Of a stretch of 42,094 nt of DNA, positions 31,405 to 41,571 are shown piece after piece (positions within the stretch are counted from its first letter, which is position 1; each line of letters starts with the position of its first letter). Made by a program: the position numbers and the translations under genes. Below the pieces are notes generated by a model. That model did not search any database. It was not told the origin of the DNA and was given only the letters and a program-made list of their open reading frames with translations. Source of the DNA: Bacteroidales bacterium (GTDB lineage: Bacteria > Bacteroidota > Bacteroidia > Bacteroidales > UBA7960); contig SKVW01000028.1 of NCBI GenBank assembly GCA_007129255.1, forward strand, positions 1 through 42,094. The letters run 5' to 3'.

Positions 31405-32415
31405 ATGAGTGTTTACATCCTTGCAATAGAATCGTCCTGCGATGACACCTCTGCGGCTGTGATCCAGGATCGCAAAATTCTTGCCAATTTCATTGCCAAT
31501 CAGGCAATTCACAAAGATTTTGGTGGAGTTGTTCCTGAGCTGGCTTCCCGCGCTCACCAACAAAATATTATTCCGGTAATCCACAAGGCTTTAGCCAATG
31601 CAAATATAAGCAAAAAACAGCTAAACGCAGTGGCTTTTACCAATGGACCGGGTTTGCTGGGTTCATTATTGGTTGGTGCGTCCTTTGCCAAAACTTTTTC
31701 TCTTGGTCTGGGCATTCCGCTGATACCGGTAAATCATATGGAGGCACACATCCTGGCCCATTTCATTGAAGATGCCCGTCAACAGGAGCCGCCATCCTTT
31801 CCGTTTTTGTGCCTCACCGTATCGGGAGGCCACACCCAGGTGATGCTGGTAAAGGATTATTTTGACATGGAGTTGATCGGCCAAACCATTGATGACGCGG
31901 CAGGTGAAACATTTGATAAGGCGGCCAAGATCATGGGGCTGCCCTACCCCGGCGGACCGCTGATCGATCAATATGCGGCCAAAGGGGATTCCCGGGCTTT
32001 TCGCTTCCCTTACCCTTCGGTTCCCGGGCTGGATTTCAGTTTCAGCGGGCTGAAGACTTCCATTCTTTATTTTTTACGCGACCGGTTGAAAGAAGATCCT
32101 GACTTTATTGAAAAGAACAAATATGACCTTTCGGCTTCCATCCAGCATACCATTGTCGGCATTTTAATGAAACAGCTAAAGAAGGCATCCCGTGAAACAG
32201 GCATTAGGCAAATAGCCATTGCAGGGGGTGTTTCGGCCAATTCGGGTTTGAGGCAGGCCCTTTTGGATGAACAGGAAAAAGGTGATTGGAAGGTATTTAT
32301 CCCCCCCTTTGAATATTGTACCGACAATGCAGCCATGATTGCCATTACCGGCTACTTCAAATATCTGAAGAAAGATTTCAGTTCCCTGGATATAAGCCCG
32401 TTCACCCGTTACTGA
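31405..32415 (+). CDS. tsaD: tRNA N6-adenosine threonylcarbamoyltransferase TsaD
   Basis: 336 residues. It transfers the threonylcarbamoyl group to A37 of ANN-decoding tRNAs, with TsaB and TsaE. ASKHA fold with the N-terminal IESSCDDTSAAV (8-19), metal ligands H111 and H115 in NHMEAHILAH, a SGGHTQ motif near 142, the nucleotide-binding AGGVSANSGLR near 275, and the final metal Asp in CTDNAAMIA. Length is normal. The start ATG is the first in the frame and gives the standard N terminus. It is divergent from the TamB-like gene and overlaps the next convergent gene by 7 bases. Confidence 0.96.
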   Translation: MSVYILAIESSCDDTSAAVIQDRKILANFIANQAIHKDFGGVVPELASRAHQQNIIPVIHKALANANISKKQLNAVAFTNGPGLLGSLLVGASFAKTFSLGLGIPLIPVNHMEAHILAHFIEDARQQEPPSFPFLCLTVSGGHTQVMLVKDYFDMELIGQTIDDAAGETFDKAAKIMGLPYPGGPLIDQYAAKGDSRAFRFPYPSVPGLDFSFSGLKTSILYFLRDRLKEDPDFIEKNKYDLSASIQHTIVGILMKQLKKASRETGIRQIAIAGGVSANSGLRQALLDEQEKGDWKVFIPPFEYCTDNAAMIAITGYFKYLKKDFSSLDISPFTRY

Positions 32416-33254
32416 GGGCCCTGCTCATTGCGGTTTTCCCGGTTTGAAATCCGGATAAAGCGATCGTTGTAGGCAGGCCTGAGGACATGACGGTTCCGGT
32501 CGTAAGTAAAATAGCGATCGGTGTCACTGGCGATCTCTTCCCTCACATAATAATTCATCAGGTAATCAAAAATATACTGGGCATTTTGCTCACCGGCAAA
32601 ATAGGCCAGTTCAAATACATCGTCACTGGTAAGGTAATAAGGGGTATAACGGAAAGTGACTTCCCCGCTGAGTGGGTTGTAAACAAACCGGCCATCGAAA
32701 TAATCGCTGGTATACTGCATGGAGTAAAGCACCTCCATGGGTTTTTCAGGCTGGTTCAGGGTAGAGAACTCAAACCAGTGGCTTTGCATGAGGGTGGTTT
32801 GGGGAAACCGCTGAAGGTATTGAATGGTATCGATTGTTGAGGTAAAAATGGCCTCATCCAGGTATTCCATCAGTTCCATTTGTGAGAGGGAAAAGATAAA
32901 AGCGGTGGTATCCAGGCGAAAAAAGGAATCAATATTATCGGGCCCGAAAACATTCACCTGGAAAAGTTCAAGGTGATATTTCAGGGATTGCATAAAATTG
33001 TTCACCACCAGTGAGTCGTCCACCTCATCCACAAAACGGGCATCTTGAAGGTCGTAAGCATCAATGGTGTCGGGGTCGGCTTCATCGGGGTGTGTGGGAT
33101 AATATTTGACAATAAGGTCTGGGGGGGGAAGCAACAACACATTGATATTGGTTTCTTCCTGAACGAACTGTTGTGCCAGGCGACGTTCAGTAGCGCATGA
33201 AAACAGAACCAGGACCGGAAGCAAAAGAAAAAACAGACGTTTGATCCAATTCAT
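32409..33254 (-). CDS. Uncharacterised lipoprotein
   Basis: 281 residues from the ATG at 33254. Signal peptide MNWIKRLFFLLLPVLVLFSC with a lipobox Cys at residue 20, so it is a membrane lipoprotein. No catalytic motif or known domain was recognised. The mature part has many acidic and aromatic residues; the C-terminal third has YTPYYLTSDDVFELAYFAGE and then FDYLMNYYVREEI. It overlaps the end of the convergent tsaD by 7 bases. The frame is open to 33302, but the longer start would bury the signal peptide. It is probably a conserved envelope protein of this phylum of unknown role. Confidence 0.75.
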   Translation of the reverse strand: MNWIKRLFFLLLPVLVLFSCATERRLAQQFVQEETNINVLLLPPPDLIVKYYPTHPDEADPDTIDAYDLQDARFVDEVDDSLVVNNFMQSLKYHLELFQVNVFGPDNIDSFFRLDTTAFIFSLSQMELMEYLDEAIFTSTIDTIQYLQRFPQTTLMQSHWFEFSTLNQPEKPMEVLYSMQYTSDYFDGRFVYNPLSGEVTFRYTPYYLTSDDVFELAYFAGEQNAQYIFDYLMNYYVREEIASDTDRYFTYDRNRHVLRPAYNDRFIRISNRENRNEQGPQ

Positions 33255-33306
33255 AACAGGGTTACAATGGGATAAAAATACAGTTTTTTTTTGGTTACCC
33301 ATGGTT

Positions 33307-33347: not shown

Positions 33348-34574
33348 TTAGTTTTTATGGGCCTCCAATAGCCTGGCCCCAATCTCTTTTCCGTATTCAA
33401 AGCATTTCTGGAATTCATCTTCGTGGGGGGTAAATTTCACAAACACCCCTTCGCCCTGCACATTAAGTTTAAGGTTTTGCAGGTTGGTTTGGATGAGCTT
33501 TCCGGCTTCCCCGCTCCATCCGTAAGAGCCAAATGCCCCGCCGATCTTTCCTTTATCCCGGATGGGGCTTACCACGGCAAAAAGCTTGTAAATGGGCAGC
33601 AGGATGTTCTGGTTGATGGTCGGGCAGCCAATGATGAGGGCACTGCTTTTGGCCACCCGTTCGTCTACATCCCCAATGGGCATGGTTTCGATATCGGCTA
33701 CTTCCACGTTAAAATTCCCGGTGCTTTGTATGCCTTCGGAAATGGCTTCGGCCATTTTTCCGGTGTTGTGATAAGCCGACACATAGGGTATAAATACAAA
33801 ATCTTTTTGGGGAGTTTGCAAAGCTTCTTTTGCATATTGCTCAGAGAGGTCCACCCATTTTTTCCAGTCTTTCATCAAAAGCGGGCCATGACCGGTGAGC
33901 ACGGCATTGATCTCCAGGGGGCGGATCTTCTCTATGGCCTTAAGCATAAACTTGCTGAAAGGTTTCAGGATCACATCAAAGTAATATTTAAAGGCATCAC
34001 TGAAGTCGCCCACTTGGTCGTCATACATATCGGGGTTGGCATAATGGCAGCCAAAAGAGTCGCAGGTAAACAGCAGTTTGTCCTCTTCAAGGTAGGTGTA
34101 CATGGTGTCGGGCCAGTGCAGGTTGGGTGCCGAAATAAAGCGCAGGGTTTTGTTACCCAGGTCTATGGTTTCCCCGTCTTTCACGATCTGGTGCTTAAAG
34201 TCTTTGCCCAGGAAGTCTTTCAGGTAGCCGATGGCCAGGCGGCTGCCCACCACCGTTGCGTTGGGAGCCAGTTCCAGCAGGTTGGCAAGATTGCCGCTAT
34301 GATCGGGTTCGGTGTGGTTCAAAATGATGTATTCAATTTCCGAAGGATCGGTAACCTTTTTTAGCTTCTCAAGGTAGGTTTCCCAGAATTTTTCCTTGGA
34401 GGTTTCGATCACCGCTTTTTTGTCGGCATCAATAAAATAGGAATTATAAGTGGTGCCGTATTCGGTGGTCATCACCACATCAAAGGTTACAATGTCATAA
34501 TCCAGAATACCGATCCATTTCACGTCTTGGGTAATGTCGAGCACTTCAGTGTCTGGTCTTTGTTTGGCTTTCAT
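33348..34574 (-). CDS. FprA-type flavodiiron protein
   Basis: 408 residues. N-terminal metallo-beta-lactamase-like diiron domain with the iron-binding H-x-E-x-D-H motif (HTEPDHSG near 87-94), the later His/Asp ligands in LHWPDTM (about 153-159) and CDSFGCHY (about 171-178), and HGP near 234. The C-terminal flavodoxin domain (about 255-405) has [10 protein letters not shown] as its FMN phosphate loop. No rubredoxin or flavin-reductase extension is fused, which is class A. Such proteins reduce oxygen to water or nitric oxide to nitrous oxide and protect anaerobic metabolism. On the minus strand TATTTTTG (34587-34580) ends 5 bases before the ATG, hinting at a leaderless mRNA, and a second copy is at 34680-34673. 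Confidence 0.94.
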
Positions 34575-34977: not shown

Positions 34978-36231
34978 TTATCCCAGTGATTTGTCCACGT
35001 GGGTGATGAGTTTGCCGAGGCTGGTCACGTAACTGCCGTATTCATTGTCGTACCAGCCGAAGATCTTGGCATGGGTAACAGGCAGGTGAATATCTTTTTC
35101 CACATTAACGCCCAGCGCAGCCATTGAGGATTCGGGCAGGCTGATAAATCCCGTGCGGGTATGGGTTTCGTGCCCTTCAACGACCACAGCGGCCGGGTAA
35201 CCCATCATATCGGCCGACACGTTTTGTTTTTCACTGAAGATCAGCAGGTCTTTCTGCGGGCCTTTGGCAGCCTTCTGGTAAACGCCGTTCAGGAAATCCT
35301 TGTTGATCACCGGTTCGCCTTTGTTATCCATTTGTGAGTTGAAGGTGATGTTCAGGATAATGAGGGAAACGGTGTTGGTGGGGATTCTGACCGAATCGGC
35401 CATAAAGCCGATCTCCTCGATCTGAGGCAGGATCTTTTCCAGGGCTTTGGCGGCTCCGGTAGAAGAAAGGATGATGTTGTTGAAGACCGAACGGTTTTTT
35501 CTCAGGTCGGAGGCGGCAGCCTTTGGCACGGCATCCAATACATTCTGGGAGTTGGTGGCTGCATGTACCGTTGACATGGAAGCCGTGAGAATGTTGGCGG
35601 TTTCCCGGGTTTGCAGCAAGGGGTACACCATGTGCGAAAGCCCGGTGGTGGTGCAGCTGGCGGCAGAAAGTACATGGTGATCGGATGCGCTATACTCCAG
35701 GTGGTTGATGCCAAACACCGTCATAAAACTGTCGTCGGGCATTTTTTTGGTTTTGTCCTTGATCTTGAAAGGGGCGCTGAGGATCACTTTTTGTGCGCCG
35801 GCCTCCAGGTGCCCGCGCAGGCTGCCGTTTTTCTGGTCGGGGGCGATGGTAGGATCTGCAAATACCCCGGTACAATCCACCACCACCCTCACGTGGTTTT
35901 CTTTCCATTGAATCTCGGCGGGATTGCGGTAATTACGCAACACCTTGATAAGAAAGCCATCAAACTCCAGCAGGTCTTGTTCCTCATTTACAATGGTGAA
36001 GGATTTGCCATTGCCGGAATGCCCGTAAATAAACCTGGAGAGGGAACCATAAGTGGAGTCGGTTTCCATTACCTGTATAACATCTTCCAGGGAGCGGCCC
36101 ACTTCCCTGCCCACATTAATGACTACCCCGTCGAAATAGCGGGTGGCAATCTGGTTCCACAGGGTGAGTTTTCCAATTCGTCCAAGACCGTTGATTCCAA
36201 GCAGGTTTTTGTCGTTCAGATTGGTTTCCAT
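34978..36231 (-). CDS. Divergent glyceraldehyde-3-phosphate dehydrogenase family protein
   Basis: 417 residues, against about 335 for standard GAPDH. NAD(P)-binding GINGLGRIG (12-20), catalytic C193 in SAASCTTTGLSH and H223 in TVHAATNSQN are in place, as are DLRKNRSVFNNIILSSTGAAKAL and WYDNEYGSYV. The active-site loop differs from the usual S-C-T-T-N-C: Asn is replaced by Thr196 and the next Cys by Gly197. HAYT is replaced by HAAT. The extra length is spread over insertions in the N-terminal half. It could be a true GAPDH of a second type, or a dehydrogenase for another phosphorylated sugar acid. It starts 22 bases after the PPDK-like gene and is probably coupled to it. Confidence 0.85.
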   Translation of the reverse strand: METNLNDKNLLGINGLGRIGKLTLWNQIATRYFDGVVINVGREVGRSLEDVIQVMETDSTYGSLSRFIYGHSGNGKSFTIVNEEQDLLEFDGFLIKVLRNYRNPAEIQWKENHVRVVVDCTGVFADPTIAPDQKNGSLRGHLEAGAQKVILSAPFKIKDKTKKMPDDSFMTVFGINHLEYSASDHHVLSAASCTTTGLSHMVYPLLQTRETANILTASMSTVHAATNSQNVLDAVPKAAASDLRKNRSVFNNIILSSTGAAKALEKILPQIEEIGFMADSVRIPTNTVSLIILNITFNSQMDNKGEPVINKDFLNGVYQKAAKGPQKDLLIFSEKQNVSADMMGYPAAVVVEGHETHTRTGFISLPESSMAALGVNVEKDIHLPVTHAKIFGWYDNEYGSYVTSLGKLITHVDKSLG

Positions 36232-36253: not shown

Positions 36254-39200
36254 TTAGTTAATTATTTCGGTTTGTTCGGTTTTGTAATGTCCTTTAAAAA
36301 TATTTCCTGCAAAGCCATCGATGGAGATTTTATCGCCGGGTTTAAGTTCCAGGCCATTGATTCGGCAGGTTTTTTCTTTTTCATCCACCAGCAGCTGCCG
36401 GCAGTTGAGCACGCAGACCTTTCCGAGGCGTGCGGCGGTAACGGCGGCATGGGAGGTTGTACCTCCCCGGGAAGCCACCAGGCCGTCGCATTCAAAGATG
36501 ATGGGAATATCATCGGGCACGGTATCGGGCCGGAGCAAAATGCAGGGGTCGTCGGGAAATTTTTTTCTCAGGGTTTTGATGTCATCCATATCGATGGCCA
36601 GGCGGCCGTTCAGGGCACCCCCTCCCCCGCCTATGCCCCTTCCAAGCAGTTCCATTTTTTTGTTTTTCTGGCTGAATACCTCCAGGCGCTGGGGCTTGAG
36701 GGTATCCTGGTCGCGAATCTGGAGGATATAAAGGTCTTCGGGATTTTCAGACTCAAAAGTAAATTCGATCTCCTGGTGGTTAAAGCCCTGGTTTTCCACC
36801 AGCTCATTGGCAATTTCATACAAACGCCGGTATATTCCTGGCAATTCTTTTTGGAGGGAAGCCTGGTTTTCACGTTTGGTGAGCTCTTTTTGCAGTTCCG
36901 AGAGGGGCAATGCATGCACCAGTCCGGCCACGATATCTTCGCCCTGGCTGCAAAGGGTAAAGTCTCCATTGAGATAGATGCCGGGCTTTTGCACCATAGG
37001 GTTGTAAGTAAAGGCCACGCCGGTGCCGGAATATTCGGCAATGTTTCCCAGCACCATTTGCTGGATCACCACGGCGGTGCCCCACTCATCGGCAATCTGC
37101 AGGTGGTTGCGGTAAACGTTGGCCCTTGGCGACTCCCAGGAGTCAAAAACGTTCATGATGGCGTGTCGCAGCTGCTTCCAGGGGTTTTCCTCAAATCTTA
37201 CCTTTGCCTCCTTCAGCACCTTTTTGTAGGCAAAGGCCATTTCGCGCATTTGCTCCGGAGTAAACTGTATTTTTTGCTCTACCTTATAGCGGTTTTTAAA
37301 ATCGATCATGATCTGGTCGAACACATCCCGGTTGATGCCGTATGTCATTCCCCAGCTTTGCAGGAAGCGGCGGTAGCAATCCCAGGAGGTCCATCCGAAA
37401 TTTGGTTGTTTGCTGAAGGATTCCACAATGCGGTCGTTCATGCCCACGTTAAGGAAGGTGTTCATGGCCCCGGGCATGGAAATGGCCGTGCCGCTTCTTA
37501 CCGAAAGCAACAGGGGATTGCGGGGGCAGCCGAAGTTTTTACCCGTAAGCTTTTCAAGCCTGCGCACATGGTCTTTAACCAGCTCATCGAGCTCTTTGGA
37601 AAGGGTGGGGTTTGACAGGATGGCCTTGCGGCGGCGAAACACCTCGGTGGTGAGCACAAAACCGGGCGGCACCGGGAATTTTCCCAGGTAAAGTTTTTTC
37701 TGGAAAAAGGCTTTGGAACCGAGAAATATCTGGTTGTCCACTTTGGGTTTTTCTTCATACAAAGGACTCACTACCAGGTCGGGGTCATAAGACATAATGT
37801 GCCGGATCACTTCCGGGGTAAGGTTGTCCACCATGTTGCGCAGGGAGTGGATCATGCGGCCGATATAATTGTCGAGCGGCTGAATAAGGAAAGAGGAATA
37901 AAGGATCTCCCGGTAAAAGGCCTCGGATTTTTTCATGATCAGCTGGGAGGTTTCTTTCTCATTCAGCTTTCCCTCCGGATCGAACAGCTGGGGGATGATC
38001 ATGCGCAGGGGCAGGTCGTAAAAGCCAAAGAAATAGGTGTTGGTGATGTCTTTGACATTTTTGGCCATGAACTGGAACAGGTTGATGAACTGGTCCAGGG
38101 AAAAGCTTTCGCTGGTAAGTCCGTAACGAAACATCTGGAGGTTGGAGTCCAGTCCCTGGCTGGTGACCCCGTCGAGTTCCAGGCCCCTGCGGAAAAGGGA
38201 AAGGATCTTATAGGCAGAGTTCAGAGACTTGGCCGTGATGTATTCGGTCTGGAACTCGTAGATGCGTTGCTCCATGAGGCGGGCGGCCAGGCGTTCCAGG
38301 CGAAAGATCAGCCCCAGGGCTTCAAACTTTTCCTCCCGGTACTGCCCGTACATGGAAGGTATCCCGAAAGCGACATGCCGTTTATGGTAAATGCTTTCCC
38401 ATCCTTCGCTGAACTCCGGGTTAAAGATCACCTGGTTGAGCCGGTCCATAAACCCGAAGATCACCTCCAGGGAAGCCTCTGGCTCTTTGTTCTTTATGTG
38501 ATTTTGCAGTTCTTTTATTTCATTTTCTTCAAAGAAGCGGTACTTTTTCAGGTTGGCAGCAATGTCGGTGGCCTCAAAAGAATATTTCTCGCTCAAAAGG
38601 AAATACAGGCGAAACAGCATGGCCACCCGTTTTTTGTCGCTTTCGCAGGAATGGTCAACCTTTTCCAACAACTTCGTAAACCCTTCATCCGAAATTTGCA
38701 ACAGCTCCTTCGGGCTGCAATGGTGTTTCTGGCACAGCTCGTTCAGCAGCTTGTTCACTCCTTTAAACCAGCGGCTGTTCTTGTCGATGGTAGCGATCAC
38801 ATCTTTGGGCAGCACTTCTTTCAGGGGCTCGGTTTTCCCGTCGTACCAGAAATGAAAGATCCTGCGGCAAAGCTCAATATGGGCATTGTTGCCTTCGATA
38901 TGCACCTGTTTGCGCAGAAAATGGATGAGTTTGTCCTGCCTGCCTGATATCTCATCCATTAAGGTGGTAACTTCCCGGAGTTCGCCTTCGGCCCCAATTT
39001 CATTGAAATAAACCGGGAAGATGCGTGTAAGCTGTTTGATCTGCTTATACAGGGGAGAGATGTCGCTGTTGAGCAGTTTGGTGATGTCGCGCTGAAACAG
39101 GTCGGTATCGAAAATGAAGATGCCGCCCAGGCGCAGGTTGACGATGAGTGCCGACAATAGTTTACGGAAAGTGTAGGGGGCGTGTTCGATCAGCTCCAGC

Positions 39201-40366
39201 CACACGCGGATGTTTTTCACATGGTTGGGGTTGACCTTTAGTTGCCAGTTGTCCTGGGTATATACCGTGCCCGGGGTTTCAAAACCCAGTTCAATGAGTT
39301 TGTTTTCGAAAAAGGTGATGATGCGCCTCTCCTTCACTTCAATCACTTCTTTCCCCAGGGTAAGCACACATTCCAGTACGGTGGACATATAGTTGTCCTT
39401 GAGCTCCTCAAACAGGAAGAAGATGTTTTCAAGGAATCCGGTAAACTGGTCTTCGGGCACTTCCTTGCGAATGTTGCGCAGGATCTTGTTAAGTTCCCAT
39501 AGGAGCTGTTTGCGCTGGGCCTCCATTCCGGGCAGGTGCAGCAAAAAGATGATATAATAAAACCGCTCAATATGCAGTTGAAAGCGGTCGATGAATTTTC
39601 GGAAGTGCGCGGTCAGTTCATTATGCAAAGGCACTTTTGCAGTGAGGGTTTTCCAGTCTTTGGCTTGTTCCAGGTTTTGCTCCAGGGTTTCAAAAAAAGG
39701 CTTGCCGATATCCCTCACCTGCTTTGCATAATCTTTTTCAAAGAGGTGTTTTTGTTTTTCAAACCATTCTTCGGTGGGGGTATTTTCTTTCCAGAAGGCC
39801 AGGGTTGCCGAGGCCACTTTTCTGGTAAAATCCAGGGTGGGTTGACCAAAGGCTTTGCTCTGGGCCAGGCGGGCAAGATGTTTTTTAAGCTGCCCCGCAT
39901 GGGTTATCAGCAGCATCATTTGCTCCCTTTCGAGATAATGAAAGATCTCAAAAAGTTTGTTTATCAGGGGTTTGTTTTTTGCGGGATCAGCATCGTTGAG
40001 TACCCCGGCAAATTCAAGGAGGGTTCCCAGGAGTAGGCCGGCTTCTTCACGGCTGAGTTCTTTTTTGAAAAGGTTGTGGGCTATGTCCAGCAGGAGCATA
40101 AAAGGTTTTTCCGGGTCCTGGTGAATTTCGTATAGCCATCGGTCGCCAAGAAGGATCTTGCGGAATTCGTCCACCACAAAGCGGTGGTTGGCATAAGGGT
40201 GGTTGAGTTCTTTCAGGAAATCTTCGGTACGTTTGAAGACCCCCCAGTATTCCCTGGATATTTCCAGGAAGTCCTTCTGCCCGGAGGGGATCACGATATT
40301 TTCCCTGCGGGTTTCGGCAAGATTAACTTCAAGGGCTCCGGAAGAGAATTTTTCTTTTTTGCTCAT
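36254..40366 (-). CDS. Large PPDK-like protein (ATP-grasp + phosphohistidine) lacking the PEP/pyruvate barrel
   Basis: 1370 residues. About 1-860 is unrecognised, largely alpha-helical, with no signal peptide or membrane segment. From about 880 it follows pyruvate phosphate dikinase: LGSKAFFQKKLYLG (ATP-grasp start), VRSGTAISMPGAMNTFLNVG, WDCYRRFLQSWG, DEWGTAVVIQQMVLGN, YSGTGVAFTYNP, QEIEFTFE, then the swivelling domain with ASRGGTTSHAAV, whose phosphohistidine is H1306. The protein ends 64 residues after that, so the C-terminal TIM barrel that binds PEP or pyruvate is absent. It may phosphorylate another substrate or hand the phosphate to a separate protein. hydE ends 110 bases upstream; the GAPDH-like gene starts 22 bases downstream. 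Confidence 0.88.
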   Translation of the reverse strand: MSKKEKFSSGALEVNLAETRRENIVIPSGQKDFLEISREYWGVFKRTEDFLKELNHPYANHRFVVDEFRKILLGDRWLYEIHQDPEKPFMLLLDIAHNLFKKELSREEAGLLLGTLLEFAGVLNDADPAKNKPLINKLFEIFHYLEREQMMLLITHAGQLKKHLARLAQSKAFGQPTLDFTRKVASATLAFWKENTPTEEWFEKQKHLFEKDYAKQVRDIGKPFFETLEQNLEQAKDWKTLTAKVPLHNELTAHFRKFIDRFQLHIERFYYIIFLLHLPGMEAQRKQLLWELNKILRNIRKEVPEDQFTGFLENIFFLFEELKDNYMSTVLECVLTLGKEVIEVKERRIITFFENKLIELGFETPGTVYTQDNWQLKVNPNHVKNIRVWLELIEHAPYTFRKLLSALIVNLRLGGIFIFDTDLFQRDITKLLNSDISPLYKQIKQLTRIFPVYFNEIGAEGELREVTTLMDEISGRQDKLIHFLRKQVHIEGNNAHIELCRRIFHFWYDGKTEPLKEVLPKDVIATIDKNSRWFKGVNKLLNELCQKHHCSPKELLQISDEGFTKLLEKVDHSCESDKKRVAMLFRLYFLLSEKYSFEATDIAANLKKYRFFEENEIKELQNHIKNKEPEASLEVIFGFMDRLNQVIFNPEFSEGWESIYHKRHVAFGIPSMYGQYREEKFEALGLIFRLERLAARLMEQRIYEFQTEYITAKSLNSAYKILSLFRRGLELDGVTSQGLDSNLQMFRYGLTSESFSLDQFINLFQFMAKNVKDITNTYFFGFYDLPLRMIIPQLFDPEGKLNEKETSQLIMKKSEAFYREILYSSFLIQPLDNYIGRMIHSLRNMVDNLTPEVIRHIMSYDPDLVVSPLYEEKPKVDNQIFLGSKAFFQKKLYLGKFPVPPGFVLTTEVFRRRKAILSNPTLSKELDELVKDHVRRLEKLTGKNFGCPRNPLLLSVRSGTAISMPGAMNTFLNVGMNDRIVESFSKQPNFGWTSWDCYRRFLQSWGMTYGINRDVFDQIMIDFKNRYKVEQKIQFTPEQMREMAFAYKKVLKEAKVRFEENPWKQLRHAIMNVFDSWESPRANVYRNHLQIADEWGTAVVIQQMVLGNIAEYSGTGVAFTYNPMVQKPGIYLNGDFTLCSQGEDIVAGLVHALPLSELQKELTKRENQASLQKELPGIYRRLYEIANELVENQGFNHQEIEFTFESENPEDLYILQIRDQDTLKPQRLEVFSQKNKKMELLGRGIGGGGGALNGRLAIDMDDIKTLRKKFPDDPCILLRPDTVPDDIPIIFECDGLVASRGGTTSHAAVTAARLGKVCVLNCRQLLVDEKEKTCRINGLELKPGDKISIDGFAGNIFKGHYKTEQTEIIN

Positions 40367-40476: not shown

Positions 40477-41571
40477 TTATACGTTTCCAGGATTTCTTTT
40501 TTTAAAGTGTTTGGAGTCGCCCCATTCTCCATAGCCTATCTCCCCTCCTGCCATATGAATGCGGGCTTCCAGGCAGCGCTTGCATTCTTCGGCATCTTCA
40601 TCGGTACAGGGTTTGTCTTCATAGAGCAGGTAGTCGTCGCGGTATTTGGTGGGTGTGAGGTTGGGCATGATGATATTGGCACCCACCTTAATGGCTTTTT
40701 CGCGCCCCATGGGGTCAATGGCCTGCATGGCCGTGGTAGCGGCAATGTTGATGTCTTTCATGAGGATGCGCAGGCAGGCGACCATTTTCAGGCTCAGGTT
40801 AAAGCGTTCCATTTTGGGCAGCAGGCGGTCTTTGTATTTGTACATGGGTGTGTCGGCATGTTCGATATAGGGGCCCATGCCCACCATGTCGATGTCGTGT
40901 TCCTGAAAGAAAAGGAGGTCATCGGCCAGGTCTTCCACGGATTGGAACGGCAGGCCGATCATCACCCCTGATCCGACCTGATAACCCACTTTGCGCAGCA
41001 GGTACAGGGCTTCCAGGCGTGCGTTGTAGTCGTGGGTTTTATCCACCGGATGATAGGTGGGATACAAAGCAGGATTGGACACCTCGATGCGCAGCAGGTA
41101 GCGGTGTGCCCCGGCATCGAACCAGCGGCGGTAGGTTTCTTCGGTTTGCTCGCCCAGGGACAGGGTGATGCCCAGCTCTCCTTTGCTCATGTCCTTGATT
41201 CGTGCCACCAGGCTTTCGATGCGGGCGACATAGTTTTTGCCGCTGCGTTCCCCGGCCTGTATCACCACGCTGCCAAAGCGGTTTTCCCATGCATAGCGGG
41301 CAGCTTCCAGCACCTCATCCTCAGAGGCTTCGTAGCGGTGCTGTTTTTTGTTTCCGGCTCGAATGCCGCAATAGTAGCAGTTTTTGGCGCAAAGGTTGGA
41401 AAATTCGATCAGGCCGCGGTAAAAGACTTTTTTGCCCACGAGGGCTTCTTTCACAGCCATGGCTTTTTCAAACAGCAGCTTGCGGTCCTCCTCCCCTGCC
41501 GATAAGAGTTTTACCAGATCGGGTTTTTCAAGATTTTCCTTTTCAAGAATATGTTTTATGTCGTCGGACAT
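40477..41571 (-). CDS. hydE: [FeFe]-hydrogenase maturation radical SAM enzyme HydE
   Basis: 364 residues. Radical SAM cluster C61-x3-C65-x2-C68 in NLCAKNCYYCGIRAGN, as in HydE. The second-cluster site C322-x7-C330-x2-C333 near the C terminus matches the spacing known for HydE (and not biotin synthase or PylB). SLGEQTEETYRRWFDAGAHR, VGSGVMIGLPFQSVEDLADD and MGPYIEHADTP are also typical. HydE helps make the dithiolate-bridged diiron site of [FeFe]-hydrogenase with HydF and HydG, neither of which is in the window. The ATG at 41571 follows no obvious promoter. It ends 110 bases before the PPDK-like gene and could head the same transcript. Confidence 0.92.
   Translation of the reverse strand: MSDDIKHILEKENLEKPDLVKLLSAGEEDRKLLFEKAMAVKEALVGKKVFYRGLIEFSNLCAKNCYYCGIRAGNKKQHRYEASEDEVLEAARYAWENRFGSVVIQAGERSGKNYVARIESLVARIKDMSKGELGITLSLGEQTEETYRRWFDAGAHRYLLRIEVSNPALYPTYHPVDKTHDYNARLEALYLLRKVGYQVGSGVMIGLPFQSVEDLADDLLFFQEHDIDMVGMGPYIEHADTPMYKYKDRLLPKMERFNLSLKMVACLRILMKDINIAATTAMQAIDPMGREKAIKVGANIIMPNLTPTKYRDDYLLYEDKPCTDEDAEECKRCLEARIHMAGGEIGYGEWGDSKHFKKRNPGNV

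Follow-up and report, generated by a model that had tools for sequence, protein, structure and literature searches.

A barrel-less dikinase linked to glyceraldehyde-3-phosphate dehydrogenase: a possible dikinase bypass at the phosphoglycerate kinase step

Few pathways are known as well as glycolysis and gluconeogenesis, in which the established dikinase bypass acts at pyruvate. Pyruvate phosphate dikinase (PPDK; EC 2.7.9.1) consists of an ATP-grasp domain, a swivelling phosphohistidine domain and a C-terminal phosphoenolpyruvate (PEP)/pyruvate TIM barrel. The glucan, water dikinase of plants has an N-terminal acceptor-binding region, with starch-binding modules, and its C-terminal side resembles PPDK, with the His domain preceding the nucleotide (ATP) domain. 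Dikinases devoid of a barrel are also known, namely rifampin phosphotransferase (RPH) and the two-component systems HpeHI, CreHI and PpsAB (PMC4844700, PMC12167813). Here we describe a dikinase gene in a stretch of 42,094 nucleotides (the window) covering positions 1 to 42,094 of contig SKVW01000028.1 from a Bacteroidales bacterium (assembly GCA_007129255.1). The protein shares with PPDK the order of the ATP-grasp and swivelling His domains, but it has no barrel, carries about 880 residues before the ATP-grasp domain and has a glyceraldehyde-3-phosphate dehydrogenase (GAPDH) as partner. This pair may be an unrecognised way to make or use 1,3-bisphosphoglycerate.

The dikinase reading frame is translated without interruption, and its parts and the partner gene lie as follows.

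36254..40366, minus strand: barrel-less dikinase, 1370 amino acids, recognised by Pfam, NCBIfam and PPDK alignment; 79 homologous loci in a search of one genome per species.
37727..40366, minus strand: N-terminal helical half, residues 1-880, no family match; predicted almost all helix (AlphaFold2 with 62 aligned homologues; mean predicted local distance difference test, pLDDT, of 87).
36677..37726, minus strand: PPDK-type ATP-grasp (nucleotide-binding) domain, residues 881-1230, from the NCBIfam match, PPDK alignment and structural superposition.
36266..36661, minus strand: swivelling phosphohistidine domain, residues 1236-1367, from Pfam, PPDK alignment and structural superposition.
36449..36451, minus strand: codon of the phospho-acceptor His1306 (H455 of PPDK), invariant in 70 homologues.
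34978..36231, minus strand: long GAPDH partner, 417 amino acids, with Cys193, His223 and the substrate and phosphate site residues kept; Arg42 replaces the NAD-type loop.

Only two Pfam families match the dikinase, PPDK_N (residues 922-1151) and the PEP-utilizers mobile domain (residues 1272-1354, 57 bits); Pfam finds neither a PEP/pyruvate barrel nor any family before residue 922. The NCBIfam PPDK model matches from residue 879 with 359 bits, far under its full-length cut-off of 843, and the alignment to solved PPDK begins at residue 881. Because the libraries match parts of PPDK only, the family is easily mistaken for a PPDK fragment. A model of residues 172-1370 superposes on the PPDK of Clostridium symbiosum (1kbl) with an E-value of 5.7e-31 and an rmsd of 3.1 Å over 540 columns. 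The six key donor residues of PPDK are all matched: K22, R92, E323, Q335, R337 and H455 correspond to K885, R957, E1201, Q1216, R1218 and H1306, which are identical throughout 70 full-length homologues, and D321 of PPDK is replaced by Glu in all 70. Judged by these conserved residues, the donor half (ATP-grasp and swivelling His domains) is catalytically intact. An initial annotation of the window, made from the letters of the DNA, had described a PPDK-type dikinase with all donor signatures including H1306, no barrel and an end 64 residues past that histidine, and the Pfam, NCBIfam and PPDK comparisons agree with it on each of these points; its mostly helical N-terminal half of about 860 residues likewise has no family match, but measures about 880. 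The closest model is that of the inorganic phosphate (Pi)-dependent PPDK, with the water-dependent PEP synthase model reaching 73 bits versus 359, an indirect pointer to a Pi-dependent chemistry that would give pyrophosphate (PPi).

Since the C-terminal PEP/pyruvate TIM barrel is absent, the dikinase is not a PPDK. A sequencing or frame error hiding or truncating the barrel, which the initial annotation had allowed for, is excluded because only 22 bases separate the dikinase stop from the start of the GAPDH gene and homologues from other phyla share the C-terminal end. Full-length homologues span at least five phyla and are mostly about 1335-1450 amino acids long; their alignment runs from the N-terminal half through to the final residues, and none has a PEP/pyruvate barrel at the C-terminus. 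The carriers belong to Bacteroidota, Bacillota (Clostridia), Ignavibacteriota/Kapaibacteria, Cloacimonadota, several deltaproteobacterial lineages (Geobacteraceae, Syntrophales, Smithella and Syntrophorhabdus) and one Gemmatimonadetes bin. Their distribution is patchy, with the dikinase in 1 of 297 genomes of a phylum-wide sample, in 13 of 149 genomes of the window's order and in 53 of 149 genomes (about a third) of the order of one Smithella genome. Nearly all genomes sampled are metagenome bins, and the independent lineages behind these counts are fewer than the counts, much of the sampling falling within two clades.

The window's genome also encodes an ordinary full-length PPDK (a reading frame of 939 amino acids), an ordinary phosphoglycerate kinase (PGK) and two further GAPDHs, and the dikinase could be imagined as a split or truncated PPDK which discharges its phosphohistidine in trans on a barrel such as that of this full-length PPDK and still yields PEP. 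The barrel on another polypeptide, as the initial annotation had suggested, found no support: the only PEP-utilizers_C match of the genome lies within the 939-residue PPDK, on another contig, no stand-alone barrel gene was found in the genome, and none recurs beside the dikinase among the neighbourhoods of relatives. A split PPDK served by a barrel in trans, which would leave about 880 conserved residues and the GAPDH link unexplained, is thus highly improbable.

The most informative feature of the locus, missed in the initial annotation, is the conserved GAPDH partner, encoded by the gene next to the dikinase. In a set of loci seeded with the dikinase only, a long GAPDH lies at most 2.5 kb downstream in 68 of 80, and 6 of the other 12 lie at contig ends. 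The pair is co-directional in 27 loci, of a Bacteroidota-Clostridia-Geobacteraceae-Cloacimonadota clade, and convergent in 41 loci of a Syntrophales-type clade. At the level of genomes, the long GAPDH was found in 49 of the 50 dikinase genomes tested, some as contig-end fragments; it is unlinked in five dikinase genomes (L012, L029, L050, L062 and L069). Among 149 genomes of one order, 49 have both genes, 93 neither and 7 are discordant (Fisher P 9e-31, relatedness ignored), and in the window's order all 9 genomes with a long GAPDH fall among the 13 with a dikinase. The deep splits agree between the dikinase and long GAPDH trees, and both place Geobacteraceae with Bacteroidota and Clostridia, apart from the other deltaproteobacterial lineages; the distance correlation of the two trees (r = 0.98) could arise from common descent by itself and was therefore given no weight as a separate line of evidence. 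The link between dikinase and GAPDH is strong.

Four dikinase genomes (L089 to L092) have no long GAPDH. An ordinary NAD-type GAPDH divergently adjoins the dikinase in L091 and L092, an ordinary GAPDH lies 3.7 kb away in L089 and none is nearby in L090; the three full-length dikinases of this group keep every catalytic and N-terminal invariant residue checked. L017, L023, L048 and L078 also carry an ordinary GAPDH gene, at 9-226 bp on the upstream side, and Smithella-type loci, L056 and others have gap-pgk genes at most 10 kb from the pair. The ordinary GAPDH beside the dikinase in the exceptions therefore indicates that the link is to the GAPDH reaction and not to one GAPDH protein. The largely two-clade sampling of metagenome bins could be taken to mean that inherited gene order produced the link by accident, leaving it uninformative on the reaction, but the two genes stay associated in two relative orientations, in five or more phyla and even where they are unlinked, and a canonical GAPDH occupies the neighbouring place in other lineages, which makes such an accident very unlikely.

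The long GAPDH resembles type I GAPDH (TIGR01534) in its catalytic Cys/His and phosphate-site residues and differs from it in length (417 versus about 335 amino acids in ordinary GAPDH), in an identity to ordinary GAPDH of 30-35%, in an invariant Arg42 and the loss of the NAD-binding Asp32, and in a score of 296.7 bits which, although TIGR01534 is the best model by far, stays under the curated cut-off of 367.2. In 63 of 63 sequences C149, H176, the substrate-phosphate residues T179 and R231 and the Pi-site T208 are invariant, and the Pi-site position 209 holds Gly or Asn. In all 63 proteins the NAD-selecting Asp32 of GAPDH is replaced (by V, I, A, T, C, L or Q), with Gly33 and Arg34 invariant. 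Because the catalytic and phosphate residues are invariant and Asp32 is replaced, the long GAPDH is probably, by what is established on GAPDH structure and function, a phosphorylating enzyme of NADP type, and the conserved Cys/His and phosphate-site residues therefore make an acyl-phosphate product or substrate plausible. The replacement of Gly209 by Asn at the Pi site concerns 31 of the 63 long GAPDHs, and was seen in the inspected Syntrophales-type rows (L023-L080); it may alter phosphate handling. Separately, L083 encodes a second divergent GAPDH-like protein, with TTTSAVKA for TTTGAAKA, so that three GAPDH types are found in one genome.

These residues bear on the possibility that the dikinase acts on another small molecule (glycerate, dihydroxyacetone or glyceraldehyde, 2-phosphoglycerate, or erythronate 4-phosphate), with GAPDH catalysing the next or the previous step. 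The known barrel-less dikinases do take alcohols or phenols (rifampin, phenols; PMC4844700, PMC12167813), and the long GAPDH also scores with erythrose-4-phosphate dehydrogenase models, albeit far under their cut-off. The Pi-site threonine and the substrate-phosphate arginine are, however, invariant as in phosphorylating GAPDH, and no other model approaches TIGR01534, so that we consider another small-molecule acceptor unlikely.

If the phosphate does not go to a barrel, the N-terminal half is the candidate for its destination. Residues 1 to about 880 have no Pfam family and no credible match in the PDB by sequence profile. Their model is a predicted helical solenoid with a single main beta hairpin (656-663/670-677). 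Searched with Foldseek, it returned generic helical repeats only, none with E < 1e-3; a karyopherin/HEAT likeness was rejected (E above 1e-3, TM below 0.2), and weak matches to TAL-effector, P450 and designed-helix structures were taken as repeat or composition artefacts. Conservation is very uneven along this half, with 3 near-invariant positions in residues 101-350, 44 in 351-500 and 24 in 651-700, and two clusters can be delimited.

38888..39286, minus strand: first near-invariant cluster, residues 361-493 (e.g., H382, R387, K444, R448, R464, R485, K486, H489), candidate acceptor site.
38294..38404, minus strand: invariant KRHxAxGIPSMYG...E.K loop in the beta hairpin, residues 655-691, candidate active-site loop.

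The invariant residues of the hairpin are K662, R663, H664, A666, G668, I669, P670, S671, M672, Y673 and G674, and its tip (663-668) has low model confidence despite total conservation, a behaviour that would suit a loop ordering on substrate binding. We infer that the stretches 351-500 and 651-700 form the acceptor site and that the variable part is a scaffold. The intact donor half, the barrel missing in every homologue and an N-terminal half with invariant residues of its own support the supposition of the initial annotation that the dikinase has another acceptor, which this half may recognise.

A solenoid could also dock a protein, GAPDH or another, which the His domain would then phosphorylate as a regulatory switch at the triose-phosphate step. 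A protein-directed dikinase would accord with the solenoid-like model, whose likeness to protein-binding solenoids is only weak, and with the recurrence of GAPDH of either type as neighbour. The two GAPDH types are, however, about 32% identical and both occur as neighbours, a pattern easier to reconcile with a common metabolite than with a common docking surface, and the invariant Arg/Lys/His/Tyr clusters and the glycine-rich loop look like a small-molecule site. We regard a protein substrate as unlikely.

The likeness to RPH, HpeHI, CreHI and PpsAB consists of an ATP-grasp and a swivelling His domain serving a non-barrel acceptor, a role that in the dikinase would fall to the N-terminal half, and the structural matches are weak. 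The acceptor domain of RPH lies between ATP-grasp and His and that of HpeH is fused to His, whereas the putative acceptor half of the dikinase is N-terminal and unrelated in sequence; the donor half of the RPH group is also less PPDK-like, that of the dikinase being of true PPDK type. The RPH model scores 22.7 bits on the dikinase, against a cut-off of 999 and in the ATP domain, and neither RPH nor any solved structure matches the N-terminal half significantly. By its different acceptor half and domain order, the dikinase falls outside the RPH group. Glucan, water dikinase is set apart by its description, since the dikinase has ATP-grasp before His and no carbohydrate-binding Pfam match. No paper on a phosphoglycerate dikinase or on a dikinase-GAPDH pair was found in the open-licence literature.

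We propose, giving it somewhat less than an even chance, that the dikinase phosphorylates 3-phosphoglycerate through its N-terminal acceptor half in a reaction coupled to the partner GAPDH, or runs in reverse. The enzyme would work in three parts, the helical half, the ATP-grasp domain and the swivelling His domain. By homology to PPDK, ATP would phosphorylate the histidine with release of AMP and PPi; the swivelling domain would then, following the general dikinase mechanism (PMC5371819, PMC4844700), move the phosphate to the N-terminal half and not to pyruvate. There the invariant basic residues and the KRHxAxGIPSMYG loop would constitute a second active site. The acceptor would be 3-phosphoglycerate because GAPDH is the conserved partner, and the product 1,3-bisphosphoglycerate would be handed to GAPDH, or taken from it, the latter probably using NADP(H). 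The net reaction would be 3-phosphoglycerate + ATP + Pi <-> 1,3-bisphosphoglycerate + AMP + PPi. If so, it is the same interconversion beside GAPDH as that of the PGK and GAPDH couple, but the dikinase has no sequence relation to PGK and would use AMP, PPi and Pi, not ADP. Textbook free energies for the phosphorylation of 3-phosphoglycerate are about +18 kJ/mol by PGK and about +4 by a dikinase, before the pull of pyrophosphatase. The two phosphate bonds spent would favour the gluconeogenic direction; run backwards, the reaction could conserve the energy of PPi. The complete scheme, a 3-phosphoglycerate dikinase as a new central-carbon reaction with a new acceptor fold, channelled with an NADP-type GAPDH and serving anaerobes as a PPi-linked bypass of PGK, is more tentative.

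Several observations weigh against 3-phosphoglycerate as acceptor. Ordinary PGK is kept in 45 of 50 carriers, and ordinary GAPDH too, so that the module is an addition and not a replacement; their retention in most carriers would therefore make it a second route that may be gluconeogenic. In the window's order a long GAPDH is missing from three dikinase genomes that are 97-99% complete, in another order three genomes carry a long GAPDH and no dikinase, and in G529 no GAPDH is present within the 16 kb examined. The N-terminal half has no substrate-binding fold recognisable by profile search or Foldseek. The 5 of 50 carriers with no PGK match were not used as evidence of PGK loss, since gap and pgk often lie together and one missing contig suffices. 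In a side observation, a divergent PGK-like protein (247-275 bits) accompanies the ordinary PGK of G301 and G305 and takes its place in G313. The window's genome has two membrane pyrophosphatase genes, but such genes occur in 134 of 149 genomes sampled from one order, with or without the dikinase, and are uninformative as a correlate.

The other conserved neighbours are clade-specific and not common to all loci: HydE, HydF and a flavodiiron protein in Bacteroidales, and alanine racemase, TraB-family and metallophosphatase genes elsewhere. PADLOC gave no match, and a defence-system reading was rejected. In the window these neighbours are the following.

40477-41571, minus strand: HydE, radical SAM maturase of FeFe hydrogenase (335 bits, cut-off 255).
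33348-34574, minus strand: flavodiiron protein (ODP and flavodoxin) downstream of GAPDH, conserved there in Bacteroidales relatives only.
32409-33302, minus strand: protein of 297 amino acids with no Pfam or NCBIfam match, its position conserved in 7 Bacteroidales loci.

HydF lies just upstream of HydE in related Bacteroidales loci, and only in that clade does the dikinase-GAPDH pair adjoin hydrogenase maturation genes.

If the proposed reaction is true, the dikinase would provide a second dikinase bypass in glycolysis and gluconeogenesis, at the PGK step, and would be to PGK what PPDK is to pyruvate kinase, in carriers which live near the energy limit: syntrophs and anaerobes of soda lakes and sediments. 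Even with another acceptor, it would represent a family of dikinases whose acceptor half had gone unrecognised, carried by about one third of the sampled genomes of one order.

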